Both the position numbers and the translations under genes were made by a program. A DNA stretch of 64,000 bases from Branchiostoma floridae (Eukaryota; Chordata; Leptocardii; Amphioxiformes; Branchiostomatidae). Location of the stretch: positions 22,217,936 through 22,281,935 of the forward strand of contig NC_049982.1 in assembly GCF_000003815.2 (NCBI RefSeq), written 5' to 3'. The notes under the pieces were generated by a model. That model was not told where the DNA came from. It did no database searches and saw only the letters and a list, made by a program, of their open reading frames with translations. Positions 1,928 to 64,000 of the stretch are shown piece by piece (within the stretch, counting starts at the first letter, position 1; each line of letters opens with the position of its first letter).

Positions 1928-2022
1928 GTAGCCTGGTATCCACACCTATAATTGTACCTGCCAGTCTCTTCCTCCTCGCAGGAAAGACTTGGCAGCTTTC
2001 ATAGGTTTGGACACCAGGCTAC
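1928..2022. mobile_element. Foldback (MITE-like) element with TAGCCTGG termini
   Basis: Outer inverted repeats 1928-1950 and 2000-2022 match at about 20 of 23 positions (GTAGCCTGGTRTCC...). An inner pair at 1959-1973 and 1981-1995 (CTGCCAGTCTCTTCC against its complement) continues the stem. The whole element of about 95 bp folds into one hairpin. It has no coding capacity and would depend on a transposase elsewhere. Confidence 0.75.
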
Positions 2023-9135: not shown

Positions 9136-9225
9136 CTGGCCGGAATACTTAATGAGAACAAAGTAGAGGTTGGGGTAGTTACGTAGACACTTCTTCTTCA
9201 CCTCCTTAATAGTCATTGTTAGGGA
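9136..9225 (-). CDS. Candidate isolated exon, unidentified
   Basis: A 90-nt segment flanked by CTCATAACAG and GTGAGAGC is open in phase 0 and reads MTIKEVKKKCLRNYPNLYFV then LIKYSGQ after three leading residues. Codon use looks plausible, and an internal ATG could make it a first coding exon. It does not resemble Slit or any family I recognise, the acceptor is weak in pyrimidines, and no partner exon was found. It may be chance. Confidence 0.2.
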
Positions 9226-12200
9226 CTGTTATGAGAAGGGCAAATGTTTGCCGGCCACTTGATGTGGCGCCATAAACACATAATCCTGCCTCCCATGCAA
9301 ATAAGCCAGGAGGCAACTGTACTTCTCCCTGCCGTTTGCGCCTGTACGTCACGGCGACAGGGAGGGCAGGGTGGAGGCCGAGTTGACACGGCAAAAAGCT
9401 TTCGTCTGGACCGAAAGATAAGGATGTCTTTGAGGAGGAAAGTCAAACAAATCCAGGGCCTGAGTAGGAAAGGAAGGGCATCCTGACAGGGATTTTGAGT
9501 GCTGGTGCCAGCGCACACATCCCCATTAGAACTGCACAAGCACCAGGATCAATACCTGGGAGGGCCCTTACCACTCCAGGTCTGTGAGTTTTGTGCCGTC
9601 CTAGACATGGTAACATGTGGATGAACCTGTGTTGAAGAGGCTTAATCACCTGTCAGCCTGTCTGTAGAGGTTCAGGGGTCTATGGGGCCACCTCTTCCCT
9701 CCTACTATCAGATCGAAGTTACCACTAGTACAGCCTTTATTCAATGATATCAAAGTTTCTGTAGTCTGGATGCAGTTACCTACAACTTTGCCTATCTGTT
9801 TATCTGCAATCTAGAAATAAGAGAAGGGAAGACATCACACAAGCATACACAAGTCTAGGTGTCTGCCATTGATTCCTTTTGGTTTGATGCTTCTTAAACA
9901 GAAGTTGATGCACACAATAATGTGTAAAGTACAAGCTTGGGTAGATAAGTGGCTGCTGCGTCCTGTCTAAATCTAAATGTTTATAATCAAATATAAATGT
10001 GATGATCAGTCATGATAGACTGTACGTGCATGTGGCTGCACAGTAATGAGACTAGGAAGGCCATCCCGGCCTGGATAATCCTACTGTAGACAGGATATCA
10101 CTAGGGCACCAAACCCCCAATTAAATGTAAAGGATTCCATGGCTCCTGTAGATTTGCACAGCACTTCCATTGGTAGGTTGGTATGACAAAGACTTTTCAC
10201 TTGAATACACTTGAAAAACCACATCCAAACATTTCCACACAAACACAGACTTCTGGTGTACCCTCGCTGGCACCATTCGTTCCAAACAAAGCTAATCCTG
10301 AGCAGGGACATAACTTAACTCATGATGGTTGCCTGCCTATGGTGATTGGTAATTTATGGACTTAAACAGCACTCATTTTCACAGTGGTTAATGGGTGTAA
10401 TAGACTTCAGTATTGACTTCTAATACACAGGTGGTCTTTTGTGCACAATGCCCCATGGTGGGATAGAAGTGTAGCAGAATCACTGATTATTGCCCAAACC
10501 ACTCAAGCATTTAAAGGAGTTTATATATCAGGCAACAAAGTAAAAAGATGGATGTTTTCTGGGCAGCTAAGGTGAAGGAGGCCTGTGCCCTGCGATATCA
10601 GCGGAGATTTGTGCTTAATGTCTATAATGATAACTTAAGGAGAGCCTAGGATTGTTCAGAACTACAACCTGATCAGATACAATGAAAGAAACTTACTGCA
10701 AAATTTTAAAGATATTTGCACAGTTCTTATCAATCTATCTTGTTGCGCAAGAAAAGTTTATGCTCTTCGCTGCCACCCCAACGGCTTCACAACTCAGACT
10801 AAAGAAAAGACTTGTGACTCATTATCCAGTGCTGTATGTCAGGTGGATTAGTCCAGACTATTCCCTATTCCCCAGAGGACATTTGTTAAGTTCTAGGAAA
10901 GCCCCTGGCAGACGGTCAAGTGTAATTGGCTGGCACCAGCCTTCCACTTCCTCGCCCTACCCTGACCCCACCACATGCCAATCACCACCACAACCCTCTC
11001 CGCTAAGTCTGGGCGCGATCTGGACCCAAGATGAACCCCGCAGCTTGTCCGCAAATATTTGCCGCTCTTCCCCGCTGCAGTAAGGAATCCCCAAACAAGT
11101 GATTACAAACTGCACCAGGTTTGCCAAACACTGCTCTGCTTTCATCCACCCTTCCTATACCTTTAATCTACCCCGGTTTCTCTTGCTCATAGTCCCCGCA
11201 GTTTCCTCCCATCACCATTTCCTCTGTTGGGTGATAGCCCTTGTGGTTGCTCCAGCTTGTAGTAGGAAATAGAACATCATGAGAATAAAGGTCCAAAGTG
11301 CATACAATACACACGCAGATGCACAATATTGTTATGAATATTATAAAGCATAACCTCATGTATAAATGATGATCAGTCTATGGTGCACTCTTCTGTAATA
11401 CTCCTCAAGTTCAAATTCAATCTGCGCTTTTCTGGTAAACGATTGATTCATGATGTCTTGAACAGTTTCGGGCAACATAACATTCTTAACTGGCGCACTC
11501 CGGGTTCCCTGATAAACCCAAGGACATCGTACTTCTCTACATTGTCCTTGATATTAGTCTTAAGCCCCTCACCACATGTCGGTGAAGACCACAAGTGAGC
11601 GACACATTTTGTAAATTGTAGGGATATCTGTACATCAAAGAAGACAAAACAAAGGCGTGGCAGCAGTTTCCAAATAGCCCTCTATCTAAGTTGTTGCCTC
11701 TGTGTACCTAATATAACAGTGGTAGCTCTCCCTCCAATTCATTAATAGCCACCCCTAAAACAACTAATGAAATAGAAGCGTAAAGAACCTGCTCTAGAGA
11801 AAGCCACTGAGGCAGCGACAGACTTGCTACCTCTAAGATACTTTATCCCAGAAATTACGCCACCACTGTTCTGTTTTTCTCCTATTGCCTGAAAGTAATT
11901 TTCTCCGACATGATTTCCGGTGAAGTCCCTTTGAGAGGATATGAAGATCTCCATCCCAGTAATGGAAAAATGGAGCTGCCATCTGTCGCCCAGCTTTTAA
12001 CATGAATCTGCTCTCCGCTGTATTGATGTCTTAATAGAACTCCTTCTAATCCGATAAATGGAAGGTATGAGACCTACTTTCAAGACTGGAGCGTACCGGA
12101 TTCAACTCTGGAAGTTTCTCTACCAAGTTGGAGAAAATAACGACATAGCCAAGCCTGTGTTTCTCCATCATAGCTTATGTTTGAGCAACTTTGAGTATGA

Positions 12201-15200
12201 ATAGAATCATGTCATGCTAAAAGATAATTGACAACTTGTTAAAAGCATTTCTGGCTGTGAAGTACATGTAACTGGATCACCATGTATTGTTTGACAGACT
12301 AACAATGATTTGGATGAACAGGTCAGAGACTGACAATAGTCATACTGGGGCTACAACTCTTTTTTTCCAGCTCACTTCATCCATTCAGAGCTTGTTCTGT
12401 AAGCAACACATGTGGACACAGGCTGAGCACATTGTTTATCTCATTAGTAAGGTTAGAGCCAACGCTGGAACAAGGAGAAATCCAGCAACAAGCTCTGTCC
12501 AACAGACCACACATGTCTTCTTCATTTTTTAGTATCATCTGATTCAAAAACTGTCTAGTGAGTCTTAAATCTGGCTTATTCCATCATTATTTATCCAGTT
12601 TTTCCAGTATTTGATAACAACATGTAGAGAGAAGGTTGTACTTCCCAGTGGCGTGTCATCTGTACTGCATTGAGGCTGCCAACAATCTAATACTCCACTA
12701 ATCAACTAGGGGCAAAAGAATCTAGGCTCCCCCTGCTTGGTTCATTATATTGATCAGGTGCAAATTACGACCAGCCGCCCCCACTTCATACACCAGTGAC
12801 AAGGTAACAAGCTTTGGGAGACCCAATATCTGGGGAGAGCACCTGCCCACAAAGAAAGGTCACCGACCTCAAATTAAGTTACTTAAGTCTTTCTATGCCT
12901 GCTGGTGCCTCCTGTTCCAGAACGGGACAACCGTCCCGCTCCCCTTTTCAAGGTCCATGGGAAAATGTCAGGTTTTATCAGGTGTAATCCCCCGCTACAG
13001 TTGAGAGGTGCTATCTCTGGACTCACCACAGTGTGTCGGAATGTTCTATTGTAATTTTGGTCAGCAGAGGTTGTGACCATGCTGCGTTAATAAAGGTAAT
13101 ACTGAGGAGGGCTTCATTTTCTCACGGGGATGCAAGAGAGAACATTTATAGGGGAACTTCAAGTGTTTATGTCTTCTTCCAGCTTTAACAAAACTGAAAT
13201 CCTGCCATGAACTGGCCACTCAGTTCTACCTTCACTCTGCCTTCAGAGTGGGTATATGATACCATTCACAGCTGGATTCCAGGCTATAAAATTGCAGTTC
13301 TTTCATCTGAGTCTGACATGTAGTATGCAACTAACAGCACACGCATGAAAATGAAACTCTGAACTTGGTTTCTGATAAAATTGTGCCTTCCACTTTTTGT
13401 ATTGGCACCAATGACCAAATCTACCAATGTTTGGACATTATTTGTTCATTTTGATAGATTATGATTGTTTTGTTCTAAATGGTTATTGATAGGATTACCA
13501 TTGTTCAATTCTTCCTCACTATCCCAGTGATTGTTCTTTTCTTTCCTTGTCATTACCTGCAAATGAGGTGTCTAAGTCAGCCCAGCCTTGATTATGTAGA
13601 GAGGACAGCCAATACCAATCAACCACAGGACATTAACATGCTGACTGCCCTCAAAGCTGATTTCTGTTGACCTTGTCATTCGCAAATTGGCATTCACACT
13701 TTATTTGGACATTTATGAGACATGTACTAGTACAGAGACAAAGGAATTGCTCTGATTCAGTTTGATTATAGAATCGTACAGTCTAGCCTGTGATGATTTC
13801 TCTGCTCACATACATGCTTGTATGTCTACAATGTACCAAGAAACATTTTGGTCAGGAGAAAAGGTGTTTCATGTCTAACATATGACCCAAATGCACACTG
13901 ATGTCAAACATATTATATCTGCCTATAAGCCTTTAATTGGCAGCCTTGAGGACTCCCAGGTTAACTTTCAGGTCTTGGCAAGTAAATCCTACAACATGTT
14001 CCTCTGATCTCCTGATCTGGAAACCTTCCATACTGTGAGTTGAGCTATTGTTTATGTTTTAGTGCTGTTATGTACTTATCACAATAAGCTTTCATTAGTA
14101 ATCCAATTATGCTACAAACATAGACTAATTACTTGAAGATAAAACATTTTTTGTTTAATGTTAACAGTAAACTTAAAGTGTAAACTTAAGGAAGTCAGTC
14201 AGCTTTTATTTAGAAGGTGTCACATATGAGTTGGAAAGTTGGTCAACGTTAGTGAGAGTCTACTTTAAGGAAGAAAAGCTGCAAGGCTTCCAAGACAGTT
14301 CCATCAGTCCTAAAGCCAAATCCTGGTCCCAATGTGATAAGCACAGGTTCACATTCCCAGATTAACACTTGCCTCCCCACCTGCACAGCTTCAACCTCCG
14401 CTAAAGGACTGGTCCATTTACAACTTTGGGTGGGAGGCGAATCTTACTTTCCTCCCATGTAGATTAGAGGAGTCTGTTGGGCATACTGCCAATACTAAAT
14501 GTATCTATGCAGCAGCGAGTATGTATTACCTGACATACTTATAATACATACTACACTTTATATAAAGTTTGGCAGGTTGACTTTGCTTTACGCTGCTTTG
14601 AGGCGGCAACTACAGTGTATGCTTTTCACATTGCACAGCTTACACTCTACCTTAAATCTGAGCAGTCCAGCTATGAATCACCTGGAATTAAAACAGCTGA
14701 CAAACATATTCTCCAGTAACATTTGGTCAAACAGAATGACATCTTGTAAAATGAATTATCAATCGAAAAGGAAACACCAACAAAGTACGATAAAACTAGA
14801 TGGCAAGTTCCTCTCTCCCTAAGTGCATAAGCACGTCCAAACTACAGGAGCTGCATGTACTTGTAATCCTGCCACAGCTGACAACTTGTTCCCACAAATG
14901 TTCCCAACGGTTAAACAAACATGGGCTGGTATCTGATGGTGGGTCCATATTGATGCCTTCACCTGTATATAGGATTGGGAGAGGTAGTCAGGATCAGGAT
15001 GGAGTGTAGATAGGATGTCAGGTAAGCATGCTGCCGGGGAAGTTTGGGCAGCTAAAATAAGAATAGGAATTTGGAGTTTATTTATAAATAAGACCTACAA
15101 CTTGTCATCTAGATGTCAGGCTGAGGGACCCCACAGGAGGGGGATGTGTTGAAATGATGGATGTCAAGTGTCTTCCTGTGCCATGGTCAACCACAGGATT

Positions 15201-15215
15201 TCCTAAACAACTCAG
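9226..15215. other. Non-coding stretch in the presumed Slit intron 4
   Basis: Six kilobases without a supported exon. A 133-codon frame at 10682-11083 on the plus strand has no domain or splice context. Some segments (for example 11730-12060) look less simple than background and might be conserved non-coding DNA, but nothing decisive is visible. Confidence 0.45.
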
Positions 15216-15480
15216 TCAGGAGACAGCACCATGTTTTACTAGATGCTGTACCAGGAGACAGCAATTAATTTTACTGTCTGTTGTGCCAGGAGACAGCACC
15301 ATTTTTACTGTCTGTTGTGCTGGGAGACAGCACCATTTTTACTATCTGCTATAGAAGGTGACAGCACCATGTTTTACTGTCTCCCAATATACCAGGAGAC
15401 AGCATTATTTTTACTATCTGCTACAGAAGGTGACAGCACTATGTTTTTTACTTTCCAATATACCAGGAGACAGTACCAGA
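15216..15480. repeat. Minisatellite, 34-38 bp unit, 8 copies
   Basis: The core caggagacagcaccat followed by tttttactgtctg recurs with GACAGC or GACAGT starts at 15222, 15257, 15292, 15326, 15360, 15398, 15432 and 15469. The copies are diverged and alternate between CAGGAGACAGC and GAAGGTGACAGC variants, suggesting a dimeric higher-order unit late in the array. Confidence 0.93.
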
Positions 15481-18400
15481 GACGGCATTATAACCAACTG
15501 CTAGAATGTCCTGATGGACTGCAATGTGTGGAATAAGAAGTTATCAAAGAAATGCCCCCAGATGGTCTTACCAACCATGCACTTAACAAGAACTATAATA
15601 ATGCAGATGCATTGCAAAATTCTAGATGTCTTGATTTCATGACAAGAGAGTGTTCCTGAAAAGCTCCAGTTGAATACCCCTAAGGACCAGCAGAAAGGTG
15701 GTTAAGATTTAAGTAGTCCCAGGTGGGTCATCCTCTTTACAAACAGACACCTCCCACTTCCTCCTCAGAGACCTCAGGGGTATGGATATAATTACCTTCC
15801 ATCTGGGATGGACAGGTTCAGATATCCTCTTTTCTAGATAAGGACAGAAGCTAGGATAGGCTGCCATGTGCAAACTGTTTGCCCAGATTTGTTCAGGCTT
15901 CCTTCAAGCCCCCATCTTGTTGTCTGTTTTGATATAGGACTTGGTAGCTGGCTTCCCCCACTCCAGTTTTCCTTGGTTGGAATTTGGCCACTTCTGGCCA
16001 GCAGGAAATAATAACTGTGACCAGATAAGATGTGGTGACACTTGTATGGATGAGAGGAGAGCTGCTGCCTGTGGCCACAACACACATGCCTGGCTGCCAA
16101 CCACCAGAACATGCACATCTGGGCCTCCATCTGACCATACAGGTCCTGGACACCAACCAAACATTGGCATGGAAGTCAAAAATGCACCAAACACACCTTC
16201 CAAACTGTATTTGTGAGTTTATGAACAGATTAATTCTGCATCCGATAACAGGGCAGAAGTGTGGGGAACCGTCCTGGTTGTTGGTATGTTTGGTGAGATG
16301 TGATCAACATGTTTGTATGGGTAGGTTCACAGGTGGAGTGTGAGGAATGCACACATGAGACAAGCTGGTGTGGTACAACATGCCTTCTCTCCTCATCACT
16401 TCCTGAAGCTTCCTCAGGTATGAGGGGAAAGTATTTGTGCCATATTGATGATGAAAACAGTCTCCACTTGTCTAACATCACTGATTCTTCCACACACTGT
16501 TTTGATGCTACTGATCATCTGTTACAACAACATAATTACTACAAGCTAGGTTACACAACCTTTCAACCAAAGGCTGCAACCACACGGAGACCACTGAAAG
16601 GCCAAAGCTTTCACCAATCCTTCAATGAATTTCATAGATAAAGAACAATCCATCTTTACTTTTTGTGTATTTTATTGCGTTCTTAAATCATACTTATGCG
16701 TCTCGCATCATTTTCCAATTAAGAAATAAAGGGTCCCACAAATCCAATATTGGTCCCTTAGTGTGGTAGGTGCTGAATCCCTAACCATTGACTGTCTACT
16801 CTAGCACCATTCCTGACACACAAAATGTTAGGACAACTGGTACTTCAACATGTTTATTATGCCTCCTCCCGTGTTATATTGCTGCACAATAGCCACTTCC
16901 AGAACCTCTTCACGTTTCATGCTATGTGGTGCATAAGCTGTATCATGACTCGTCCTGGTCTTTTTGTCTCAAGAAGCGCAGAAGTTTCCCTGATGCCTAA
17001 AATAGCTGACCCTGTTTGGAGATCCCAGCAATGGGAAAGACAAGCAAGTGAGATTTACTTTTACACCATTCCATGAGATATAAGGAGAGAACATAAAAGA
17101 CAAGTATAACTTACTGTATTTCAGTAAAGCATAGCATTACCAGAAGAAATACACAAATTGTCCTTCGAAAAGTTGTCAGCTTTTGTATGCATCAGATAAG
17201 CTATTGCCTACAATTGTGACTTTGTTGTTCATGTTCATACAGCTTGTCATTGATTGTTGTAGATGTATACCATGGAGACCAGAAGCTGGATTAAAGCACA
17301 ATTGTGTTATGATACATTTTGTGTTTTGTAGGTCTCAACTTCCCAGACAAATTGGCTTTTTTTCAGTAGCTGATGCCAACATGTCAAATTGGCTCCTGAA
17401 TGAACATCATACAGAACCACAGCTTACATGTTATCCATAGCTTTTTGGCATCGTCACGTTTTTGTCATTACGGCTTTATGTCCTTTGTACATTTCTGTGG
17501 CTGGTCCCGAAGCCAGCCGTTATGGACTTTGCCTCAATACAGGGTGATCTCACAGAAACAAGATACTGTCGCCAGGCTGGACAATACGGTAATTCCTTTC
17601 TATTGTGTGTGTGCTGCCCTGCCTTGCCTGGATTGTACTAACATTATAATTACATTGTTTCACATGCCAACTACTTGTACGCTTTCCTTCACATCCAACT
17701 TTCTCCAAGGCAACAACCTTTCCTCAGCAATTATCACACCACTCCTGTAAAGCTGTGCCTTTAGAGGTGCTGAACATAATTAATTCCTTATTGCCCCATT
17801 ATAATGATTATAGTCATCGTGTCCTCAGGTGGGGCTAAATGACAGGTGAGTGATTCTAGCTGTAAGGTATGTCCCATCAAAGCTTCTGATAAACCCACAT
17901 GCTTTACATGCCTTTATTACACATCATCTCCCCTGGCCTGACAGTGATCCTGTGCAGAAGGATGGGTGGAGTTGGGCAGACCTTTTAGTGGTAAAGCGGG
18001 TGGGCAGATAGCAGGGTTGTACATGTGAGCCCAGTAGCTGGGGCCCTGAGCTGACACATGATATTAGGGACAACACAGCTGCCCCTGTCTGTCTGGTTTA
18101 TGTGTCCAGCACCATGGCAGGGCCATAGACTGTTCCTGTGCTACATGTATATCAAACATTGCCATTAAACAGGCTTGGGTCCGCTTGGTGGGAAGAAATG
18201 AAGGGGGCAGAAGAGTTGTCATGGCTACATACAGTGACGAAAATGATACATGGGGTCAAATAGATCCACAGACCAATGTGTAAACTGAAAATGTCTAACT
18301 TGGAAGCTTTCCATTGTCAATGTTCACTTTTGAGGAAACTAATGATTATTCTACATATTGATTTGGAATACTTGATTTCTGTGACATGTTAGAGTTTCAG

Positions 18401-39408: not shown

Positions 39409-39885
39409 GTGTGCTGTCCGTGGTACAGATGCAAGCTTTCGAGAAGTGTGCTGTCCAGGAAACACTCGCCTATCAGAAACAGTGTGCTGTCTATAGTGAT
39501 GAAGCTAGCTTCTCAGAAACTGTGTGCTGTCCATGGTACTGAAGCAAGCTTTTCAGAAACAGCATGCTGTCCAGGAAACAGCAGTCTGTCAGAAACTGTG
39601 TGCTGTTCATGGTACTGAAGCAAGTTTCTCAGAAACAGCATGCTGTCCAGGAAACAGCAGTCTGCCAGAAACTGTGTGCTGTCCATGGTACTGAAGTAAG
39701 CTTTTCAGAAACAGCATGCTGTCCAGGAAACACCAGCTTGTCAGAAACAATGTGCTGTTCATGGTACTGAAGGTAGGCTCTCAGAAGCAGCATGCTGTCC
39801 AGAAAACAGCAGCTTGTCAGAAACGTGCTGTCCATGGTACTGAAGCAAGCCTACAAGAAACAGTGTGCTGTCCATGGTACTGAAT
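39409..39885. repeat. 76-bp minisatellite with two-part unit
   Basis: GTGTGCTGT(C/T)CATGGTACTGAAG starts recur at 39522, 39598, 39674 and 39750, exactly 76 bp apart, with more diverged copies from 39409 and to 39885. Each 76-bp unit is two related halves (CTGTCCATGG... and CTGTCCAGGAAAC...) of about 38 bp. Both strands are open because the unit lacks stops. The array sits just past the candidate ABLIM poly(A) site. Confidence 0.94.
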
Positions 39886-43228: not shown

Positions 43229-43342
43229 TCAAAATAGATGAGCACGTTTCTTCAGCTCTGTTCTCCTCCATGCTGCCAGCCTGCTGAACTCATCTCTGGA
43301 CATGTGGAACACTGCGTCAAAATCTGCGTCTGACATGTGATT
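43229..43342 (-). CDS. ABLIM: ABLIM terminal coding exon: villin headpiece core and stop
   Basis: 114 nt including the TGA at 43229-43231. ATTTCAG acceptor, phase 0. It encodes the headpiece subdomain NHMSDADFDAVFHMSRDEFS then RLAAWRRTELKKRAHLF-stop. Visible headpiece landmarks are the three core phenylalanines (DFDAVF...EF), the exposed Trp, the basic actin-binding cluster after it (RR, KKR) and the invariant C-terminal Leu-Phe. The headpiece binds F-actin. Confidence 0.97.
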   Translation of the reverse strand, partial: NHMSDADFDAVFHMSRDEFSRLAAWRRTELKKRAHLF

Positions 43343-46300
43343 CTGAAATACAAAAAATAATACAGAAATACTGTAAATGCAGAAATGTTCGCGTGTGGTT
43401 TTATATTTGCGGTTTCCGTGGTGGCAACTTCACCGCGAGCTTAAAACCACCGCGAAAATTTTTCCCTAATAGTTTTTGACTACAGTCGATGGTGCTACCG
43501 CGAACTTAAAAGCACAGCTCTAAGATAATTCTAGTGTAACCTGAACATGTATAAAACGTGATCAGACTATTCTCATTTTTGGTGACATAATCAGGACAAT
43601 CTCACCTCTAGCTTGGATCTGTCCACATCTGGGGGAAGTTTATAGTTTGTTGTCAGTAGCTCCACCACTGGGTATATCTGCAAAGTATAGCAATCAGCAA
43701 AACATGTTAGTTTGATGCACTGAGTCTCATTCTTTCACTACCTGCATTCAGTACCTGTTTTTGTTACCTACTAAGGCAGTTAAGTTTATATTTCAAATTC
43801 AAGTTCCAGTGTAAGACCTACAGATCAGAGGGTGTAAGCATAACACTAAGCAGAGGTATAGTATCAACTGCTTGAAGAGTTTCTTAATATTAATTTGTAA
43901 ATTTGTAAATTGCAGACTGGTAAGTTTCTTCATTTTAGTCATTATTTCTTTATTAAATACCCATACGGCATTGGACAGATAAAAATAATTCCCAAGCACT
44001 GGCTAATAGAAATGTCAGATATATACAGCTTACACAAGATAAATTTCATAGGATTAGATTCAAAATAAGTTCTCTTCATAAAAGCATCTACTGGGTATCT
44101 AGGAAAGCATCTAGCAAAAGTTATTCTACCCAGTGGATATTAATTCTTCAGTTTTATCCTCAAACAGGCCCAAAACTAACATAATGTAGTCTTACCAATG
44201 TCAGTTATATAAATTGTGTATCTTATTCTTATTACTGGTGTTCCAAACATCTTCTTAGAACCTGTTTAACATAGCTTGGGCCTGTTGAGGATCTGTATTT
44301 GACACATAGACTAAGTTATATAATACTGGACATTATGGCTACATTGTGTTAAGTTGTAAGATGACTACTGCATATGTACATGTACTAAGTTATTTAGCCT
44401 GGTCCATAGGAATGGTATTGGCAGAACAGCCACCACCCGAGGACCCTGTCTAAGCTACGTGTGTGTCAGACCTGTCTTCCCTGATCTATAAAGTCTACAC
44501 AGGCTATAGAAAATGCTACTGTTTGGAATGTTCTATTTGCTTTTAAGGGAAGACAGGTCTGGTAGAGGATTAAAAGGTACATTTTGTATGTCTACTCACT
44601 ACTGTGTGCAGACTACACTCCTGTCATCACCAACATCAGGTCTCAAGGTCAACAAACAAGTTTAGACAGAGCGAAGTCACCCTTACAGAAAGATCTGTAG
44701 ACCACTCAAACCCATACATCTCATAAGTGTGTTCAACATTTTAGATGTTCAAATGAGTTGCCTGTTGATATAGTAGTGACATTCCAAGACAAAACACTTT
44801 AAAACATTTCAAACACTTTTTTTTAAGATTTGGAAGGATTTAGTTTCTGCATGACTCCAAGGATGCGGGATGACCATGAAACCTTGAGTGGAGGATGTGA
44901 GGGGTGGGGAGCTGAAGTGAGAAGTTTGTGGCAAATGTGAGGGTGGTGGGGGTGTAGGATGTAAGGGATGGGGGGCATGTAGGGGCATGTGGCAGAGGAC
45001 TTGAGCAGGGCCAAGGGATGGTGGAGGACAGACGAGTGTGGGGCATGCTGGTCAGCTCACCTTGGGTGGGCCCATGTCTGGAAGTGACTGACCTTTACTT
45101 CTCTGCAGTGACCCCAAATCACTGCCCGACACCTCCCGTGAGCGCACAGGTGAGCTGGAGTACTGACAACACAGGACAGGGGAACAAAGGAAGATGTCAG
45201 CACTTTCACTCAGGAACAAACAAACAACTTTCACCCAAGAGTAAAGAAAGATGTTAGCACTTTCACTCAAGAACAAGGAAAGGTAAGAACAGTTTTACAG
45301 CATGATTCATATTACATCATATTGCATATTACATCATATTGCATATTACAAGCAATGTGGACTTTAGATGTGCTACTTTCTAGCAGTTGCTTAACCATCA
45401 GCCTGCTAAGGTACCAGTTGGGTATCAAAATTTAGATTGGGTACTGGGTCAGGCAGCAGGGAAAGGGTTATATGCATCCTGTTTTATTCTTCCTTGCTGA
45501 AATCCACAACTGGCAAGGCTAGGAAATATTGACTACAGGCAGAAAAGCAGGCAAAATCATCACCATGAAGGCAACAACTGTTACAGTAACAGTACTTACT
45601 GCTGAGCTCCGGTCCAAGCTCGACTCTGTAGCAACAAAAGGAAATTAGGAATAACTATTGACTCTGTGATAGGCAGTAAAACGGTTATATATGGTACATA
45701 ATAATGTATGCAAATTTCAGTAATCACAAAAGGGTCAGGTGCATCTTTTTCTTATACCTTGTACTGTATTGATGGTACTTATAAACTTGTCATTTCCCTT
45801 TGTGCATGAATTTTGCAATGATGTAATACTATGTAACAACAATTTCTTATCTAGTCAAAACAATGCGAACTGAAGAAGTTAATGATGGTCTGCTTCAGTC
45901 TTTTATGTCCCTTTGAAAACCCATTCTCAAAGCCCCACACACCAATACATAAATAACCCATTCGCATACATAGTAGCCTGATATCCAAAGATATCATAGC
46001 TGCCAAGTCGCTTCATCCTCTCTGACACAAGTAGAACTATTTGTGTGAGAGGATGAAGAGCTAGATTTTGCTGCTATAATACGTTGGCCACCAGGGTACT
46101 CCACATAGCCTTGTCTGCATCCTATACAATACACCATGGGGAGGTTCTGCTAAACCAGGCTGAGGTTTGCACTTTTGTGGCATAGCCTCAAACCAGCTGT
46201 CAGACAATCAGAGAATCGGCTTTCCCTTAAGAAAATATTTTTAGCGACTCTCTGATTTGTAACAGCCAGGTTGGAGGTCACATCCATAAAAGTGGAAACA

Positions 46301-55300: not shown

Positions 55301-58300
55301 AATAGCAATTCACACATCCTTGCAAAATATGGTTGGGTGCCATGCAACAATGGCCCACCACAAAGGATCCACCAGTGCCCAGCAGTGAAATCTAAAAATA
55401 AACAGATGCAACAATAGGGCTTACTTTTATGGGGGCAATAAACTAATTTTACCATTTGGCCAGGCTTACCATTTTTTGTAAATATTTGTAAATGTGAAAT
55501 AATCACAGAGAGGTTTCACAATTATTCTAAATAAAGATATTTTTGTACAGTTACTTTCAAAATTTTTCTAAAATATTCAAAGAAATTCAAATAAATGAGT
55601 ATTTTCTTAGTCAATTTTTTGAAAATAATTGAATTATTGTGGCTCAGATATTGAGTTTTGTACAATGTTTAAATATAAATTCTAGACTTTTCGGGTTTGA
55701 GTACCATTCCCCATAATGCCTATATCAGATCACTGTATAACATATTTTGGTCACATTCTTATGTTTTGTAACGTCGCTTTGGACAGCTTAAGTTCACATT
55801 ACTTCCCCTCAGACCAAGAAGACCTTGTAATGTTGAGTTTGAAATTTAGTGAATCTCCACCTCCTCTATACAGCTATGTTACTGCTGGAAGGTTAGAGGT
55901 CATGGGGCTCAAGACACTTGTACAGACCTGCATGCTTCAACTGGAACTTTTGTACCTACAGAATGTTCCTGTTGGTTTTATCTTAAAATTGGTCAAATAA
56001 CAGGGGCATCATTTTGTCCAAAATTGTGTATTCTTTTCATTTTAGTTCAAAATACATTCACATAAATCTTATCAAGCCAAAGTCCTTTGAAATATCCTTT
56101 GGCTAATTGGGTAGCACTGGCCATACAATGTGAATTACCAAATTGATAAATCAGATCCATAATTCAAATAGCAGGTGGTATGTTTCAGGTCCCTCGAGCC
56201 TGGACCATGTGAGAAAAGTGTCTGTGTGCAGTGTGGTGTAGCGGGACGTACCATTCTCCTCCATGGGGGACACATAGGTCCTGGAGGGCGCTGGACCCAG
56301 CAGGGGTAAAGAAGAGAGCACACACAGACAAGTTAGTAAGTTGTAGTGTGGGACAGATGGGGACACAGGGGCTGCCAGCCTGCCATGCGGCTCTAGTTTG
56401 CTCTGCTGGTAGATTCTTTGTGCAGTGATTAAAAAGCAATTCTGTAATTTTGTTTGTTTGATTGATTATCTTGCTAATTAATGTAAAAGACCTTGCTCCT
56501 GACGATTCAGACTGGCTGGCAGATAGCCCCCTGTAGAAATTGTATGTCATCATAAAATACATTGTAAGTGAAGTTTCATTCTTGAGTGTGAAATCCCCCG
56601 TAGCCATGCAGTATCTAATTCAGTATACACACAAACTAAGGAAAAGATTATGTGTACAAAAGTAACATTCTGTACAATGATAAGTCTACACAGGACATGA
56701 ATACTTGGTCTGGTAGAATTGTTATATTGGAATCTGTCCTCATGTTCCCTTCAAACATGGACACCAACATTGTTCACAGCTCTCTTAGTAATACTGACTA
56801 CTTTGGATGATCTTGAGATAACTACACTACATGGACACATCAGTAACAAAATGAAACATGAAGGAGAGATGTTTCCTGTAATATTTCCTACTCACAAGCG
56901 TCCACGGGGGAGTCGTATCTTGGTTTGAACGGTGGTTCGTGGTCGGCGGCCGGGACTCGAGAAGCGCTGCGCGGGTCCATGTCTCCGATGTCTGCAGGTT
57001 TCATGTCTTTCAGGATCATCTTGCCGAGCCCAGACTGACACTCTTCCACAACCTTCTTGTGTTCCTGCTCACGGCGCCGATCAAGGTCTTCCAGCGGGGA
57101 AGTGGAGCGTCTTAGTCGCCCTGGAGATGGTGGGGGTGATCATGATGGGTGTTAGTGAGGAAAACTCGATGTCAACACACCTGAAGTGACAACTTATAGT
57201 TTTCTATTTCATCTGATGTGAACTTACATCACTCAGTGTGAAAGCAACTTGGATACAGTCAGCACCACACGTTTCACAGATAGAAAGAGAAAGAGAGGCT
57301 ACAAATTGTAGGGAATAAATAATTTCTATAAGAACATTTTGCTATCCAAATGAAAGCTCATCTGCTTTGGCAGAATCTATAGCTGTTAAGATTCAACTTG
57401 TTCCAATATATCATACATCTGAAGAAGGTCGACCAAAAATTTATGTGTTGGAACAAAGTTTAAACTTTACAGCTAAAGAACATTTTGCTCTTTTAAACGT
57501 TTTGCTAATGCTCTCATCAACTTGCTACTCTTTCTCTCCCTTCCATCACTACTTGAAGCAAACATCTCCCTGACACCACCCCTATGCCACAGTCGGGTGC
57601 AGGGATGCAAACATTAGGTGATGATGATGAGAAGTTGCTGCAGAGTTAGAGGGTGAACTTGTTACTGAAGACTTGCAGTCTACTCTCCGTAAGCTGCATG
57701 CAGAGCCTGGGAAAAAAACTCAACTGTCAGATCAAACAACACGTCCATGTGCAGCAGTTCACTTAGTGACAAACGGTGAGCTCATACTGGAAGAACAAGG
57801 CATTCTGGTAGTGAGACAAAAGTCCCATGCATGTAGCCCTTTGCTCGCAGCCTTTAGAGCTAGTGTAGCTGCCACTCCAGGGTGGGACCTGTGCTGCTCC
57901 CACCCCGGGTCTTACCGTAGTAGAAGTCGGCGTGTGGCGCAGGCCAATCATCCTTCTCCACAGGTAACAGGTCTTCTGGGGTCTTAGGTCGGGCAGCCGG
58001 TGTTCGCTGCATTTTTATTACATCTACACGGCCTACTGACTTGCCTGAAACCATGGCAACCATAGTAATGGGTGTTTGGCCTGCTCTGAATTTAACTCTG
58101 GTGTTACTCTTACTACATCATGGTTGATGACGAAGGTAGGTCGGTTTACATGTATCTATGTCTGCATGTTTTGCATCTACATTATCTAGGTGCTGAAGAT
58201 CTCTTAATACCCAGAACAGGCTGCACCCACATACAGAAATATGGTAGTCATAGTTACATGTCTGGGAAACTGGGAAAACACAGAAGAGGCCAAACAACAG

Positions 58301-61175
58301 TGAAGCAATACAAGAAAGAAAACCCTAGACAGTGTTGGCTCTAACTGGCTAATATTTTCTTGAGAGACACACATAATAAAGAAGAGGTAGCAGAAATCCA
58401 CATTGAAAGATCGAGGTTCTACTACTCTACTTGACCCTGCAGGATGACCTTACCAACACTTGTTGATGGTGAATAGACAGAACCCAGTGTCTTCCTTCCC
58501 ATGGAATAGGAATTTTCATACTCAGAATCCTCTGGGCCCGTGGCGGATGGGAAACGTTGTTGCTTTATAACATTTTTTAGGAAAATGTCTGAAAAAATGA
58601 GCTATGGCTGTAAGGTGCTGGGACATGGCAGAGACAACAAGGGACAGATAGACAGGGATAGAAGTCAACATGTCACAAACACACAACTGTTGAAAGGAAA
58701 ACAAAAGAGAAATCATGAAAACAGAAGTGAAATATGGAGTGAGAGGGTGCGATCAATGAGAAAAAAAATAAAACTGAAAAGTGAAAAAAAGAGCAGAATG
58801 GAATGGCTATCAAAATTTTGTCTAAAAGCTGCTACATCTACAAAGCTTTTACTATGCAGAATACAGATAGAATGTAGATTTGAGATGGATGTGAAGCTGC
58901 ACTGCTAACTGGCTCCAACCTGAGGTATTGCCAAAAACATACTTAATCTCAGCACTTTACAACCAAAGCTTCACAGATCAAGAGAGTATGCACATGTCAG
59001 GGTAGAGATTAGGGTCTGCTGGTAGAGATCCGAATAGTCTGTAAATCTTAAGATATCTGCTTAAAGATACTTTTCAACTTCGATTAATGTTACTGTTTAT
59101 TTGAAACTTAAGATTTCTAAATGGGACACCACCCTAATACATTCCTGGCATCCTCCTCATTGGAATCTCTACCAGTGGAATCAGTGATTCAAGGATTCAA
59201 TTACTGCACTCTCTACCCTGACATATGTAAGGGAATAGAGACAGAGGAAAGCCACATGTACATAGTACATGTACTACACAGTACACAGTATATCTGGAGG
59301 GATTTATCCACATGTACACAGTACATGATTGTACATGGTACATGTGGAAGGATTTATCCACATGTACACAGTACATCCTACCTTCTTCATCTTCAGCCTC
59401 CTGTGGAGGCCAGAAAACATCATCTGTCTCTGTGGGACTCTTACCCGAAGGAAACCTCTGCAGACTGGCTATAAACCCCTGACTCAAGGGGGCTGGAACA
59501 ACACTGGGGCATGAGAACACTGCAGCCAACCTCTCAACTACTCAGGCTTGGGGTTAGACACAGGTTTAGACAGATGAAACCTAATCTCAACCACCTTTTT
59601 ATCATGTATGTTATAGGTTGTAATTTCACACTGTTGAGATGTTGGTGTCACAGCATGCTTTGGAGATGAGAATAAAAAGTCGAAGATATTGCATTTCTGA
59701 AGAATGGTAAATGGAATAAATTTTAAGCGATTTTCATTTGATATTATGGCATTATTAAAGGCAAAGCAAGGTTTGGTTTCATTTTCATTTTAATATGTTA
59801 GACAACAAAGAGCTAAGTGTTGAATCTACAGATCATTTAGCTTGAAGACTTTCATTCATTTCAGTTTTCTCCTGAACAGAGCAGGTAGAGACCCTCTGCA
59901 GAGCTAGGTTATGGCTGGATGCAGTGTTCTCATGGGAATAACACAGTGACAATGCCTGCTACATAAGTCCCTTTACTCCACACACAAAGGTAACGTTACA
60001 TACATCTTTAAGATGCTAAGACTGCTTCAACATAACACAGACCACTAGGCCAGCTGTCAATGTCATATCAATCATGTTGAAAACGTAATTTTGACAAGTA
60101 CAACCGAAACTGCACTTCACTGACGTAACTGCAGTTAATCATCAACAAATAACAGTCAAACAAAGAATTATATTTGGATTTTGTAATACAATGCTTTTGG
60201 TGCTGTTAGGTTTCTGCTTCTGGTGTGAGAAAAGGGGACTTTCTGCTGGCAAGGTCAGATTCCTACCTGGCTCATACGGCACAGGACTACTGAGCCATGG
60301 AGAGGAGGCTTCTCTGAATGGAGAGGTCGGAGGTGAACAGCTGTCCCCCCTGCTGCCTACACTGGGAGACCCCGCAGGCATTCTCATGCTCCTGATAATA
60401 TCCTCACGACTAACCTCCGTGCTACGAGCCTTCACCGCTATGACAGCGAAAATGGTGAACGGATTCAGCAAACAGTGTCATCTGTCCCTGGTAGCTTTCC
60501 TCTCAGTTTTAATCATACATGTCAAGTTCATAGCATTCTCTGTACTTTTGACGCTGAGAAGTAAACAAAATATCTACAACAAAAGTTGCAACAAAATTGT
60601 AGAATTTTACTAGATACTACCTTGTAATAAGAAACTAAGAAGGATTGATTTGGGTCAAACTTGTCTCCGTGACGTCACAGTATCACTTGGTAGCAGCAAT
60701 CAGCAGAGAGTTCATTTCCACAAGAAGTGCTGAAACTGGCTTTGAGGTACAAACATGTAGATATACAGTCAAAACTGCCCAAGAAGACCAGTCTGGGGAC
60801 TGATACAATCAGGTATATGGACAGGACTCTTCATGCTTGTGTTGATGGTAAGAACAATCTCAGCTATGGTCACAATGGCCAGGTGGTCCTCTGGGTGGTA
60901 CAGGTTTGACTGTATATAGATTTTTTACTACATCTTTCCTGTTGCAAAAGGGACATTAAAAAAGACACTATCACATTGTGTACTGGTACATGTTATGTAT
61001 GATCGTTTACCCCACTGTGTATTACCTGTGGCAGCAGGAGAGGGAGGTCCTGGCCAATCGTCTCGCTCGATTCTGGATGGGAAGTCTGGTTGAGGGCGGA
61101 ACCCGCTGGGGTAGCGAGTTGCCTGGACGATGTCGTCATCGAGCTTGGCCGTCTTCTTCTTATCCTCGCTTTCAT
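43229..61175 (-). CDS. ABLIM: Actin-binding LIM protein (ABLIM/UNC-115/dematin family), C-terminal half, 14 exons
   Basis: ABLIM proteins bind F-actin through a C-terminal villin headpiece and link it to partners through N-terminal LIM domains; UNC-115 acts in axon guidance and lamellipodia. That is family knowledge. The joined exons are 61026-61175, 60267-60437, 59382-59492, 58454-58531, 57916-58044, 56896-57120, 56252-56290, 53999-54096, 50518-50556, 46447-46507, 45600-45625, 45061-45102, 43606-43677 and 43229-43342, minus strand. Every junction keeps frame and uses GT-AG, giving 451 codons plus a stop. Order: WPxP-containing linker modules, a charged segment with QSGLGKMILKDMKP and PRYDSP (the family's conserved SGLGxxILK and RYDSP blocks), a Ser/Pro linker, SLPDM, IYPVVELL..NYKLPPDVDRSKLE, then the headpiece ending AHLF. 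The LIM domains are not visible here. Dematin lacks LIM domains, but the DII...WPGP and RYDSP blocks point to ABLIM. Confidence 0.9.
43390..43520. mobile_element. CGCGAA/TTCGCGG inverted-repeat element in the last ABLIM intron
   Basis: 43390-43412 and 43433-43454 are imperfect inverted copies (CGCG.GTGGTTTTA...GCGG against CCGCGAGCTTAAAACCACCGCG). A third partial copy, ACCGCGAACTTAAAA, lies at 43498 onward. Its CpG content contrasts with the AT-rich intron. It looks like a dispersed non-autonomous repeat; I recall similar sequences in lancelet genomes but cannot check. Confidence 0.65.
43606..43677 (-). CDS. ABLIM: ABLIM exon: IYP block leading into the headpiece
   Basis: 72 nt, phase 0-0, TTGCAG acceptor, GTGAGA donor. 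It encodes IYPVVELLTTNYK and LPPDVDRSKLE, the first half of the villin headpiece. It aligns with the IxPYExLxxTN and LPxxVDRxxLE blocks of ABLIM and dematin. Confidence 0.95.
44467..44561. repeat. Inverted repeat with perfect 16-bp arms
   Basis: CAGACCTGTCTTCCCT at 44467-44482 and its exact complement at 44546-44561, with a loop of 63 bp. It lies within the ABLIM intron between 43678 and 45060. Probably a small foldback element. Confidence 0.7.
45061..45102 (-). CDS. ABLIM: ABLIM exon RSKGQSLPDMGPPK
   Basis: 42 nt, phase 0-0, CTGCAG acceptor, GTGAGC donor. It encodes RSKGQSLPDMGPPK. A SLPDM/SLP motif before the IYP block is usual in ABLIM and dematin and is a likely phosphosite region. Confidence 0.85.
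45230..45350. repeat. Short local direct duplications
   Basis: GATGT(C/T)AGCACTTTCACTCA occurs at about 45193 and 45250, and the motif ATTACATCATATTGCAT is doubled at 45311-45350. These are small tandem or near-tandem duplications in an ABLIM intron. Confidence 0.55.
45600..45625 (-). CDS. ABLIM: ABLIM micro-exon ESSLDRSSA
   Basis: 26 nt, phase 1 to 0, GCTACAG acceptor, GTAAGT donor. With one base from the previous exon it gives ESSLDRSSA, which runs into RSKGQSLPDM in the next exon, a Ser/Arg-rich stretch typical of the family just before the headpiece linker. Confidence 0.75.
46011..46058. repeat. Hairpin, CTTCATCCTCTC arms
   Basis: 46011-46030 and 46041-46058 are inverted copies (CTTCATCCTCTCTGACACAA against TTGTGTGAGAGGATGAAG, a two-base indel) with a 10-base loop. 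A TAGCCTG-type terminus lies 35 bp to the left, so this may be part of a decayed TAGCCTGG element. Confidence 0.6.
46147..46317. mobile_element. Foldback element, about 171 bp
   Basis: Perfect 10-bp terminal arms CTGCTAAACC (46147-46156) and GGTTTAGCAG (46308-46317). Inner arms AATCAGAG near 46207 and CTCTGATT near 46250 continue the fold. Non-coding, inside an ABLIM intron. Confidence 0.6.
46447..46507 (-). CDS. ABLIM: ABLIM exon GLSGPYWDNEAPG
   Basis: 61 nt, phase 0 to 1, TTTTTCAG acceptor, GTAGGG donor. It encodes GLSGPYWDNEAPGALHSKSS. Its length is not a multiple of three, but together with the following 26-nt exon it makes 87 nt, so the two should be included or skipped together. Confidence 0.72.
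48122..48228. mobile_element. Foldback (MITE-like) element with TTAGCCTG termini, 107 bp
   Basis: Perfect termini TTAGCCTG (48122-48129) and CAGGCTAA (48221-48228). Longer inner arms include CTACCGGGGCTCC against GGAGCCCCGGTAG and ACACTCGCT against AGCGAGTGT. Almost the whole element pairs with itself around a short loop near 48170-48183. Confidence 0.85.
49385..49434. repeat. Short foldback, CCTGGAATCCTG arms
   Basis: 49385-49396 and 49423-49434 are inverted copies at 11 of 12 positions. With the flanking TTAG the left end reads TTAGCCTGGAATCC, like the ends of the elements at 1928 and 48122. Confidence 0.5.
50518..50556 (-). CDS. ABLIM: ABLIM micro-exon GAMPGDQNDPEPM
   Basis: 39 nt, phase 0-0, TGTTTCAG acceptor, GTAGGA donor. 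It encodes GAMPGDQNDPEPM. The support is frame consistency with both neighbours and good splice sites. The sequence itself is not a recognised block, and it may be optional. Confidence 0.65.
50791..50814. repeat. Perfect 9-bp hairpin
   Basis: CAAGGAGCT and AGCTCCTTG flank a six-base loop TTTATC. TATAAT occurs just outside both arms in the same orientation. Probably the core of a dispersed repeat in the intron. Confidence 0.5.
51959..52033. repeat. Foldback, GTTTCAGATA arms
   Basis: Outer perfect arms GTTTCAGATA (51959-51968) and TATCTGAAAC (52024-52033) with inner arms ATCTTTTG and CAAAAGAT. It lies inside the minus-strand open frame 51879-52169, which argues against that frame being a conserved gene. 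Confidence 0.65.
53832..53931. other. Assembly gap (100 N)
   Basis: Run of exactly 100 N, a placeholder of unknown true length, inside the ABLIM intron between the exons at 53999-54096 and 50518-50556. Confidence 0.99.
53999..54096 (-). CDS. ABLIM: ABLIM exon with a NAGNAG acceptor
   Basis: 98 nt, phase 1 to 0, GTGAGT donor. It encodes DMSPRQPNYAPPGGYLEAQK then KASTLPSASRPGM. The acceptor is a tandem TTTTACAG-CAG, so splicing can include or omit one Ala-preserving codon. An N gap lies 67 bp on the lower-coordinate side, inside the next intron. Confidence 0.85.
56252..56290 (-). CDS. ABLIM: ABLIM micro-exon SPSRTYVSPMEENG
   Basis: 39 nt, phase 1-1, GGGTCCAG acceptor, GTACGT donor. It joins in frame to both neighbours and encodes PSRTYVSPMEEN. 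At 13 codons it is a good candidate for an optional exon. No domain is recognised. Confidence 0.8.
56896..57120 (-). CDS. ABLIM: ABLIM exon with charged SGLGKMILK and RYDSP blocks
   Basis: 225 nt, phase 1-1, CTCCAG acceptor, GTGAGT donor. It starts with RLRRSTSPLEDLDRRREQEH, an Arg/Glu-rich probably helical stretch, then EECQSGLGKMILKDMKPADI and, near the end, KPRYDSPVDA. SGLGxxILK and RYDSP are conserved landmarks of ABLIM and dematin between the linker and the headpiece. This is the exon that first identified the family. It is GC-richer and CpG-richer than the introns around it. Confidence 0.92.
57916..58044 (-). CDS. ABLIM: ABLIM linker exon E, third WPxP module
   Basis: 129 nt, phase 1-1, GGTTTCAG acceptor, GTAAGA donor. 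It encodes VDVIKMQRTPAARPKTPEDL and KDDWPAPHADFYY. This is the fullest copy of the D-I/V-I-x-x-x-R-x-P-A...D-D-W-P-x-P module along with exon A, and it sits just before the exon with the SGLGKMILK block, the position I recall for the single vertebrate copy. Confidence 0.88.
58454..58531 (-). CDS. ABLIM: ABLIM linker exon D
   Basis: 78 nt, phase 1-1, GGGCCCAG acceptor, GTAAGG donor. It encodes EDSEYENSYSMGRKTLGSVY then SPSTSV. It is Ser/Tyr rich without a recognised domain. The frame connects exon C (ending E-E) to exon E (starting G-K-S). A nearer AG 9 bases into the exon would also keep frame, so the exact acceptor is slightly uncertain. Confidence 0.84.
59301..59376. repeat. 26-nt identical direct repeat beside an ABLIM splice donor
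   Basis: GATTTATCCACATGTACACA + GTACAT occurs at 59301-59326 and 59351-59376, 50 bp apart, amid many ACATGTAC and GTACATGT palindromes from 59255. The second copy abuts the donor of exon C (GTAGGATGTAC on the minus strand). Confidence 0.8.
59382..59492 (-). CDS. ABLIM: ABLIM linker exon C, second WP module
   Basis: 111 nt, phase 1-1, with a TTGTTCCAG acceptor (the alternative CCCCAG 11 bases upstream would break the frame) and a GTAGGATG donor. It encodes FIASLQRFPSGKSP and DDVFWPPQEAEDEE. RFPSG followed by DD..WPP repeats the order seen in exon A (RYPSG then DDWPGPP). A 26-nt direct repeat overlaps the intron just past the donor. Confidence 0.86.
60267..60437 (-). CDS. ABLIM: ABLIM linker exon B, DII half-module plus Ser/Pro-rich segment
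   Basis: 171 nt, phase 1-1, GTCATAG acceptor, GTAGGA donor. It encodes VSREDIIRSMRMPAGSPS, which resembles the start of the WPxP module, but the DDWPxP end is replaced by a Ser/Pro-rich stretch (SPPTSPFREASSPWLSSP). It looks like a partial or diverged copy of the module in exons A, C and E. Ser-Pro sites suggest proline-directed phosphorylation, which is an inference. Confidence 0.87.
61026..61175 (-). CDS. ABLIM: ABLIM linker exon A, first WPGP module
   Basis: 150 nt, phase 1-1. It needs one base (G) from the previous exon, which gives DESEDKKKTAKLDDDIVQ, then RYPSGFRPQPDF and RDDWPGPPSP. The acceptor is TTGTAAAG and the donor GTAATAC. The DDWPGPPS block resembles the single DHWPGPPS-like block I recall from vertebrate ABLIM. 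The more obvious open frame starting at the ATG at the exon's 5' edge is a shadow; the phase-1 frame joins the neighbours. Confidence 0.88.
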
Positions 61176-61496
61176 CTTTACAACAGAAAAGCAGTTAGAG
61201 GAGATTAATGTTTCTGTAAAAACTATAATACATAACACATTCCCTTGTCTCAGGTTTGTTCTCTCACACCTAGATGCAACTATGACATTACTCTATGCAC
61301 ATGTATTAGGGGACACTATTCTAGTATCATTACTGTACTTATTCTATCTTTTAAAAAAAAGTCCAAGGATCAAGGGACAGGGTAGTGAAAAACTCAACAT
61401 ATATGGAGGGCAACCTGTCTTGCTACAAACACTCTTGTGAGCAAGGCATACATGTATATTATGTAGTTCCTGATTGTTCTTATTTGTATTGTGCTG

Positions 61497-61826
61497 GTAG
61501 TATCCTAGCACTAAGGACAGATGCCACAGTTCTAATCAATAAGGGTAGATCCCAGTCGGGGACTGTGGATAGTATACTCGCACTCAGGACAAATGCAAAT
61601 GCCATCCAGGTATTGTGCTGATAGTATACTAGCACCAAGGACAGATACCACCCGGCAATTGAGCTGATAGTATACTAGCACCAAGGACAGATACCACCTG
61701 GCGATTGAGCTGATAGTATACTAGCACCAAGGACAGATACCACCCGGGTTTTAAGCTGATAGTATACTAGCACCAAGAACAGATGCCACTCAGGTTTTGA
61801 GCTGAAAGTACTAGCACCAAGGACAG
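61497..61826. repeat. 46-bp minisatellite
   Basis: AGTATACTAGCACCAAGGAC recurs at 61623, 61669, 61715 and 61761, exactly 46 bp apart, with a shortened copy at 61807 and diverged copies from 61497. It lies in the ABLIM intron 5' of exon A. Confidence 0.93.
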
Positions 61827-63479
61827 ATGTCACCTGATGGATGCACACACACAAACACTGAAAGCGCAAAACATTGCATGTACAAAATCAAACATGAAAA
61901 GGAAAGGAAAAGACAATAAAAAAATCATTATCAACAAAAAAATACAGGACAGAATGCAAAAGGATAGGAAAGTGTTGCATTCCACATTTTTTTGGTGCTG
62001 GGAGCAGAGAATGCAGCTGTTAGTCCGAGATCCAAGCAAAAACAAATGACACTAACTTAAAGCTAAAAATCTAAAAGCACTCTACCGCATATACAGTTTA
62101 CCTTGTGCCATACACTGGTTATAGATATGGAGCAGTAGACAGTTAATATCAGTAAAGCTGCATCAAATCAATTATACAGGATAGATCCTACCTATATGTC
62201 ATAGCAGAATAACTGACTAAGCAGAATAACTGCAAATGAGGGTTTTTCTCGTGTCACTCCTATTTTCTTCTTGACATCAAAACTTTGTTGCACAATTCCA
62301 TGTAATCATTCCTAGAAATGTGCTTTATTTTTCTTAATTTTTTGTCCAGCAAAACCCTTTCTGGACCATTCTGCAGCAATAGCCATGTGGATTCAGACAT
62401 ATGACCACAGTGTTCAAGCATGCTCCTGATTAATCCACACCCCTCCAGATGTCTACTTGTTGCCTGAAGGGTACTTCAGCTTCTAAAGGTTGGTGGTCAG
62501 CTACAACATGACGTAACCCTGCTCTGGTGGTCATAGAGCGGTAACTACATAGAACTCTACTGAAGGTGTGCAACAAAACCATTTCGGTGTCTGTAATGGG
62601 TTTTAAGTGACCCTTACTTAAGAACTTTCAGTTCCAGTCAGGTATATTTTGTACATGGCTAATTGCAAAAAAAACATGTGGATATAACATTGACATGTAC
62701 AAACAAAACTCATATTCATGATATTTCTATTCAAGGCAGCATGCCAAAATAACAAAAACAAACAAAAGAGCTGCTTTATCATTATGTAATACAAATATCA
62801 GTCGATTTTGACGATATGTTACTGTAAAATAAAATGCAAAAGATGTTAGATATACAAAAGAACTGTGGAAACTGAACTATTGTCAGGAAACCTGTTTAAC
62901 ACCACTGACAAAGGTTCAATTCTTTGATAAAAACAAAAGAAACGATACTAACCGAAGTATGCACTTTGGGAGTAAACTACTGTAGGGAAGGATAAGGTGT
63001 CTTGTGATAACAGAAAAACAACTCAGTCAGGATTGGGGAAAATGCGTTTAACCTTTAGCACACTATGACCACCTTCACACACCTGTAGGTGTATGTGCAC
63101 ATGAAGTCCAGCATGCTAAAGGTTAACGAAAGTAGATCTTCATCATAGAAGACATCACCAGAGAGAAGAAAAACACACACTTAAGGGAGGGGGGTATTTG
63201 TCGTGTACAAGAAGACCTGATAACATAGTACAGTACACAGGGATGGTTTCAAATGTCAAGGCCATACAAAAAAGAAAATAACTCCAATATGAATATCAGA
63301 GGGTTTAAAAAAAAGTCTATCAAAGTGAACAACTTTGAACAATTTTTTGTCAATAAACTAAGTAACTTACAAGAACTTGATGTTAAAAGAACTCTGCCAC
63401 ATGCTCTGATATATTTCTAATACACATGAAAATGAACAAGGTTTAGCTGCCCTGGGTCCCTGCCAGTTTGTTTTCTCAC
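61827..63479. other. ABLIM intron 5' of exon A
   Basis: 1.65 kb, AT-rich, no exon recognised. A short palindromic CCTTTAGCA/TGCTAAAGG pair flanks 63050-63122, which may be another small foldback. Confidence 0.45.
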
Positions 63480-63492
63480 CTTGTCCAACCTG
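63480..63492 (-). CDS. ABLIM: Probable ABLIM exon end, cut by an assembly gap
   Basis: A good donor (GTGAGAAAAC) at 63470-63479 is preceded on the minus strand by 13 bases that read QVGQ and end with a single G. That is the phase needed to join exon A as GAT. The rest of the exon is in the N run above it. It could be a chance GTGAGA. Confidence 0.4.
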
Positions 63493-63592
63493 NNNNNNNN
63501 NNNNNNNNNNNNNNNNNNNNNNNNNNNNNNNNNNNNNNNNNNNNNNNNNNNNNNNNNNNNNNNNNNNNNNNNNNNNNNNNNNNNNNNNNNNN
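63493..63592. other. Assembly gap (100 N)
   Basis: Run of exactly 100 N. It probably hides most of an ABLIM exon whose donor lies at 63479. Confidence 0.99.
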
Positions 63593-64000
63593 TCTTATGA
63601 AATGCTAAGAAAAGATCACATATAAGATATTCAACAGTTTATATGTTTCAAGTGAGCTATTTCTCTTCTTTTTTCAAAGATGAGGAGTTTTTCCTTTTGT
63701 CTCTATCGAGGACCATGTAGTATACTAGTATCTGTTCTTCTATATGAGATTGTACTGAGTTCCTAAACAATGTACTGAAAGGAGATCACATGAACAATGA
63801 CAATGCTGATTGGTCAGCAATTAACGGATTGGTCGATTAAGGAATTTGACGGTCAAATAAAAGTAGGGCTTTTATTGGTTGCTAGGAAGAACACCAAACA
63901 AACAATTGGTGAATGGAAACATGTCTGCCATGTAACCATACTGGTGGTGTAACAGATGGTGATAGTTTGGTGCCTGCACATTTTCATCAACCAAGAGGGC
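63593..64000. other. Unassigned sequence beyond the gap
   Basis: 408 bases, AT-rich, with no supported exon. It is presumably ABLIM intron. Confidence 0.4.

Follow-up and report, generated by a model that had tools for sequence, protein, structure and literature searches.

Introduction

The vertebrate proteins abLIM1-3 have been described as combining LIM domains, an unfolded region homologous to dematin and a villin headpiece (PMC6056535), an organisation that the gene reported here appears to share. In the same account, the dematin-homologous region of abLIM1 crosslinks F-actin, associates with spectrins and adducin, and requires the headpiece. According to a review, the unfolded part of abLIM1 drives phase separation, which changes of F/Y to S abolish (PMC9961026). 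Single ABLIMs have been described for Drosophila, Nematostella and Amphimedon (PMC3305314).

Dematin (DMTN, EPB49; PDB 8iah chain 5) resembles the present gene in carrying a short block, then an LGKMILK segment, then a headpiece, and differs from it in having one block, the single match in a chain of 405 residues. To our knowledge, dematin has no LIM domains. The paper on the 8iah structure is said to describe dematin ringing the actin of the junctional complex. Vertebrate abLIM1-3 are not known to have more than one block each; the family profile PF16182 fits one block between positions 186 and 236, whereas five exons occupy this place here. Tandem exon duplication, a general mechanism in animal genes, leaves adjacent homologous exons of the same phase, as are found at this locus.

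In the literature on abLIM and dematin, we found no experiment that assigns a function to the block itself. Outside subscription papers, no title or abstract opening among the matches listed dealt with repeated blocks or exon duplication in ABLIM, and no paper naming the Pfam family PF16182 was found.

Results

A probable ABLIM-family gene with five module exons

The window, a stretch of 64,000 nucleotides from the 513 Mb genome of Branchiostoma floridae, contains five related exons, A to E, and the segments that follow them. The main features of the locus are listed below; unless stated otherwise, coordinates are those of the window.

C4:22217936-22281935, modules on the minus strand: the window
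64881 on the extended window scale, upstream of the window: exon with the KHFHTP motif
61026..61175, minus strand: exon A, full module; core DIVQATRYPSG, DDWPGPPS at +18; nearest to the dematin/AbLIM block
60267..60437, minus strand: exon B, core-only; EDIIRSMRMPAG, followed by a tail rich in Ser/Pro that lacks the WP spacing
59382..59492, minus strand: exon C, compact module; FIASLQRFPSG...DDVFWPPQ, W at +13
58454..58588, minus strand: exon D, core-only; NVIKQQRFPSA core, W absent
57916..58044, minus strand: exon E, full module; DVIKMQRTPAAR...DDWPAP, W at +18
56896..57120, minus strand: exon F, SGLGKMILK segment of the AbLIM anchor region; PF16182 positions 236-290, 14.9 bits alone
43229..43354, minus strand: end of the villin headpiece and stop codon; PF02209, E 4e-16

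The gene most likely belongs to the ABLIM family, to judge from the LIM-like exons, AbLIM anchor region and headpiece seen at the locus. The best relatives of solved structure for the headpiece are dematin headpieces (PDB sequence search), and the anchor region is recognised by PF16182 when exons A and F are joined (37.5 bits against a cut-off of 29). Candidates for three of the four LIM domains were located by a pattern search of genomic DNA, as LIM-like exons upstream on the same strand (97981, 105748 and 109087 on the extended window scale). Compared with LIM chains in the PDB, one of these peptides ranked paxillin first, followed by two LIMS1 entries and, fourth, Actin Binding LIM Protein 2.

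All five exons share a core of the pattern [IV][IVA]xxxRxP[AS][AG], and in the full copies DDWPxP follows 18 residues past the core proline. A preliminary description had reported four of them, A, B, C and E, and on the minus strand their peptides are confirmed at those positions; every exon is flanked by an AG acceptor and a GT donor, divisible by three in length and of phase 1-1. Its count of three full copies and one partial copy has to be revised, as exon D (IFLKNVIKQQRFPSATGPEDSEYENSYSMG...; phase 1-1, splice sites present), which sits between C and E, had been overlooked and only A and E are full. Exon C, previously taken as full, has its tryptophan at +13 rather than at +18; exon B indeed lacks the WP end and carries its tryptophan at +27 in other surroundings, and exon D is without one. 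Of the five modules, A and E are full copies, C is compact, and B and D are core-only. Together, the five exons hold 20 F/Y/W in 227 residues, and the introns between them are about 400-800 bases long.

The phases are as the preliminary description gave them, though they are weaker evidence for duplication than it had supposed. Exon F and a small exon at 56252-56290, neither of them a module, are also of phase 1-1; the shared phase therefore allows duplication or skipping and demonstrates neither.

Several short repeats accompany these exons. A 50-base tandem duplication with inverted-repeat arms inside it (59281-59376) lies at most 6 bases from the donor end of exon C, and a 46-base minisatellite of 4.8 copies (61611-61828) lies just upstream of exon A. 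Other minisatellites are found at 790-990 (unit 23 bases), 15217-15478 (unit 34-103) and 39513-39874 (unit 76).

Homology of the modules

A joint search of the five exon peptides yielded 13-residue cores (IVQATRYPSGFRP, IIRSMRMPAGSPS, IASLQRFPSGKSP, VIKQQRFPSATGP, VIKMQRTPAARPK) with a sum-of-pairs score of 236; 100 shuffled sets of unchanged composition averaged 79.5 (sd 15.4) and reached 141 at most. The possibility that the peptides align no better than shuffled sequence, raised with the preliminary description, is decided against by this comparison. When each exon was left out in turn, with cores taken from the joint search and hence biased towards the modules, p values over 20000 shuffles per exon were 0.00005 for D, 0.0001 for C, 0.00015 for A, 0.0002 for E and 0.0012 for B. 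Exon D has the highest core score of the five in this test (109), and none of 736 other 44-residue pieces of the window equals any of the five scores. Chance similarity was discarded on these grounds. A scan of 65104 windows with a PSSM from cores picked by eye, which carries a bias towards the modules that the joint shuffle test is free of, placed A, B, D and E right behind the four trained modules, and C at rank 9 with four unrelated windows above it.

Pairwise, the likeness is uneven. Exons A and E form the strongest of the ten pairs, with an ungapped alignment of 30 residues that scores 61 where 50000 shuffles reach at most 58. The pairs C-D, D-E, B-E and C-E have p values of 0.001 to 0.0034, those of A with B, C and D lie at about 0.02 to 0.03, and B-C (p 0.65) and B-D (p 0.13) are not significant alone. 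In a plain multiple alignment three columns are invariant, and identity to A is 16 to 36%.

Dematin is the link to the described proteins. Exon A matched a single sequence in the PDB, that of dematin (8iah, 8iai, 8ib2), over residues 163-199 in an ungapped alignment of 37 residues (E 1.7e-5). Exon E matched the dematin chain alone, weakly (residues 167-196, E 0.7) and in the same register as A, and the five-exon chain was significant on this dematin segment only for the stretch where A runs into B. In the dematin segment, as in A and E, the WP tryptophan lies 18 residues past the core proline. The LGKMILK segment of dematin gives a weak match (1.8 bits). A common core in five exons, two of which (E weakly) match the same dematin segment, supports the earlier proposal that a block single in dematin has here been multiplied by exon duplication.

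Comparison with the family profile

In PF16182 the block covers positions 186-228 and exon F begins at 236, which leaves about 8 positions where this gene has four additional exons; with this spacing, the profile has no space for four further exons. Exon A alone aligns to positions 186-228 with 14 bits, under the cut-off, and exons B to E alone gave zero matches. Joined singly to F, every module exon scores higher than F by itself: besides A, these are E (24.2 bits), D (22.5), B (20.3) and C (18.3). Decoys joined to F in the same way reached 19.7 bits at best among 17, seven of which were scrambled by hand without verification as exact permutations; of the ten true shuffles (three of B, four of D, three of E), nine scored 14.9 to 19.7 bits and one had no match. 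This outside profile thus supports A, E and D, and B marginally, and does not support C.

The chain from A to F scored 35.6 bits in two stretches, the better of which comprises E and F; in this query, and in that of the chain against the PDB, the residue at the A-B join was entered as D, where the spliced codon is A. A PF16182 search of the genome gave no match at the locus and equally none in 14 control genomes, and is hence uninformative.

Age and extent of the array

At the DNA level the modules have drifted far apart. Exons A and E agree at 37 of 93 bases and, among third codon positions, at 5 of 31, and a repeat search found no exon-exon DNA repeat among the modules. A recent duplication is ruled out by these two observations. 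At the protein level, A shares 10 of 31 residues with E and 12 of 31 with dematin, and E shares 11 of 31 with dematin. Since E is no more similar to A than dematin is, and the third codon positions are saturated, the duplication is old. It may date back as far as the split of lancelets and vertebrates, these identities being compatible with either side of that event.

Measured against tandem exon duplication in general, adjacent homologous peptides and matching phases (all 1-1) are both present. Residual DNA similarity of the copies, which is not required and whose loss is expected of an old duplication, is absent. The modules differ from typical tandem duplicates in their saturated DNA and in their unequal lengths and completeness.

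A scan of 123964 bases of the minus strand, made up of the window and a further 60 kb that reaches upstream to the LIM-like exons, detected no sixth module. It sees cores that are unsplit by an intron and lie outside the window's two N gaps of 100 bases each; beyond the five modules, all of which score at least 28.4, no score exceeded 9.8. When A, B, D and E were used to search the whole genome for paralogous modules, only this locus and contig C278 were returned. Two weak genome matches of B (E 0.02) were discounted because both cross four stop codons.

A second copy of the locus

The unplaced contig C278 (30760 bases) repeats the locus, starting about 5 kb past the upper end of the window and extending as far as exon F. 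Identity is 91.8 to 99.9% over long stretches and drops to 82% around exon A and at the 46-base minisatellite. Silent and replacement differences number 4:0 in A, 2:1 in B and 4:1 in C, without indels; pooled, 10 are silent and 2 are replacements (P 3.6e-5 for at least 10 of 12 silent under random change). Divergence of the introns is 18% for A-B, 4% for B-C and 2.4% for C-D, and they contain 20 gap events. The mostly silent, indel-free changes indicate that A to C are coding and constrained. From exon D through exon E, intron included, the two contigs do not differ at all, so that this stretch is uninformative about constraint. Two additional bases in the C278 version of exon F, close to where the contig ends, may be an assembly error.

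C278 may be the other haplotype. Because collinearity is lacking between its first 18.2 kb (1-18243) and the 55 kb of C4 compared above the break, with 386 bases covered, it could instead be a rearranged, chimeric or duplicated stretch. The remainder (C278:18244-30760) duplicates window positions 56890-64000 and sequence upstream, at about 99.8% identity above 63.6 kb and 92-95% or lower below; the switch coincides with a gap of 100 N at 63493-63592, as if the assembly swapped haplotype there.

Two further differences between the contigs are worth recording. In the A-B intron (60438-61025), the divergence is accompanied by 172 gap columns and far exceeds that of the neighbouring introns, and an insertion or poor alignment is possible. 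An array of about 1 kb at C278:25362-26411 matches the 46-base minisatellite, which appears strongly length-variable between the contigs.

Discussion

Here, we describe a lancelet gene of the ABLIM/dematin family in which homology, order and reading frames of five module exons, coding constraint on A to C, and the dematin match of A (strong) and E (weak) are established. The reading that we prefer, and to which we give an even chance, is an ancient tandem exon expansion that yielded five copies of a weak actin- or cortex-docking motif in the disordered linker of the ABLIM/dematin family. One linker exon, between the LIM domains and the villin headpiece, would have been tandemly duplicated long ago to give the five. 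Each block would then dock weakly, as a linear motif, to F-actin, to cortex partners (spectrin and adducin, for example) or to both, and could at the same time serve as an aromatic sticker for condensation. Given the shared phase, varying exon inclusion would tune both the length and the valency of the linker. By homology, the block should fall within a part like the unfolded one of abLIM1; its place there, together with the activities described for that region, makes a weak docking motif and aromatic sticker, whose number sets valency, the most likely role.

The copies need not be equivalent. Exons A and E probably retain full binding function. Exons B, C and D, which are without the WP motif at +18, may for that reason be unable to bind the partners of A and E, and would probably act as partial sites or spacers. 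A harsher version holds that only A, and perhaps E, is functional and that B, C and D are decayed relics serving as disordered spacer. This is the strongest rival, albeit an unlikely one. The missing WP spacing in all three agrees with it, as does PF16182 support that, measured against decoys, weakens from A to C. It does not readily explain why the frames of B and C have stayed open and indel-free, with 6 silent and 2 replacement changes, while the three introns from A to D show 20 gap events and 2 to 18% variation, nor why D, one of the supposed relics, has the highest leave-one-out core score.

Next in order, and also improbable, is the idea that A to E are used as alternatives, either mutually exclusive or as cassettes that are mostly skipped, so that each protein carries about one block of variable sequence. 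Tandem homologous exons, all of phase 1-1 and divisible by three, are what such choices would look like; each of them, joined to F, improves on F alone in PF16182; and multiple alternatively spliced transcripts have been described for mouse Ablim1 (PMC2885315). Against this, the modules are very unequal in length and completeness, the introns of about 400-800 bases are long enough for joint splicing, and the gain of C in PF16182 falls inside the decoy range. Furthermore, a limited repeat search found no intron sequence complementary to several others outside the tandem array at 59252-59376. That the likeness of B, C and D reflects convergence of low-complexity Pro/Ser-rich sequence, a view to which the non-significant pairs B-C and B-D lend some colour, is very improbable, considering that composition-preserving shuffles stay far below the joint block and that no other piece of the window attains the module scores.

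A splice-adjustable array of five docking motifs could predate the vertebrate split, a single motif having been retained in vertebrates and distributed among ABLIM1-3 and dematin; we regard this as doubtful. If true, valency would be set by exon number within one lancelet protein and by paralogs in vertebrates, and with respect to abLIM condensation and the crosslinking of F-actin the array would represent a natural series of valencies. The modules single out, within a long disordered linker that organises cortical actin, a short block that evolution has copied and retained. Its tie to a segment of dematin, a chain of a solved spectrin-actin complex, makes the role of the block testable by mutation.
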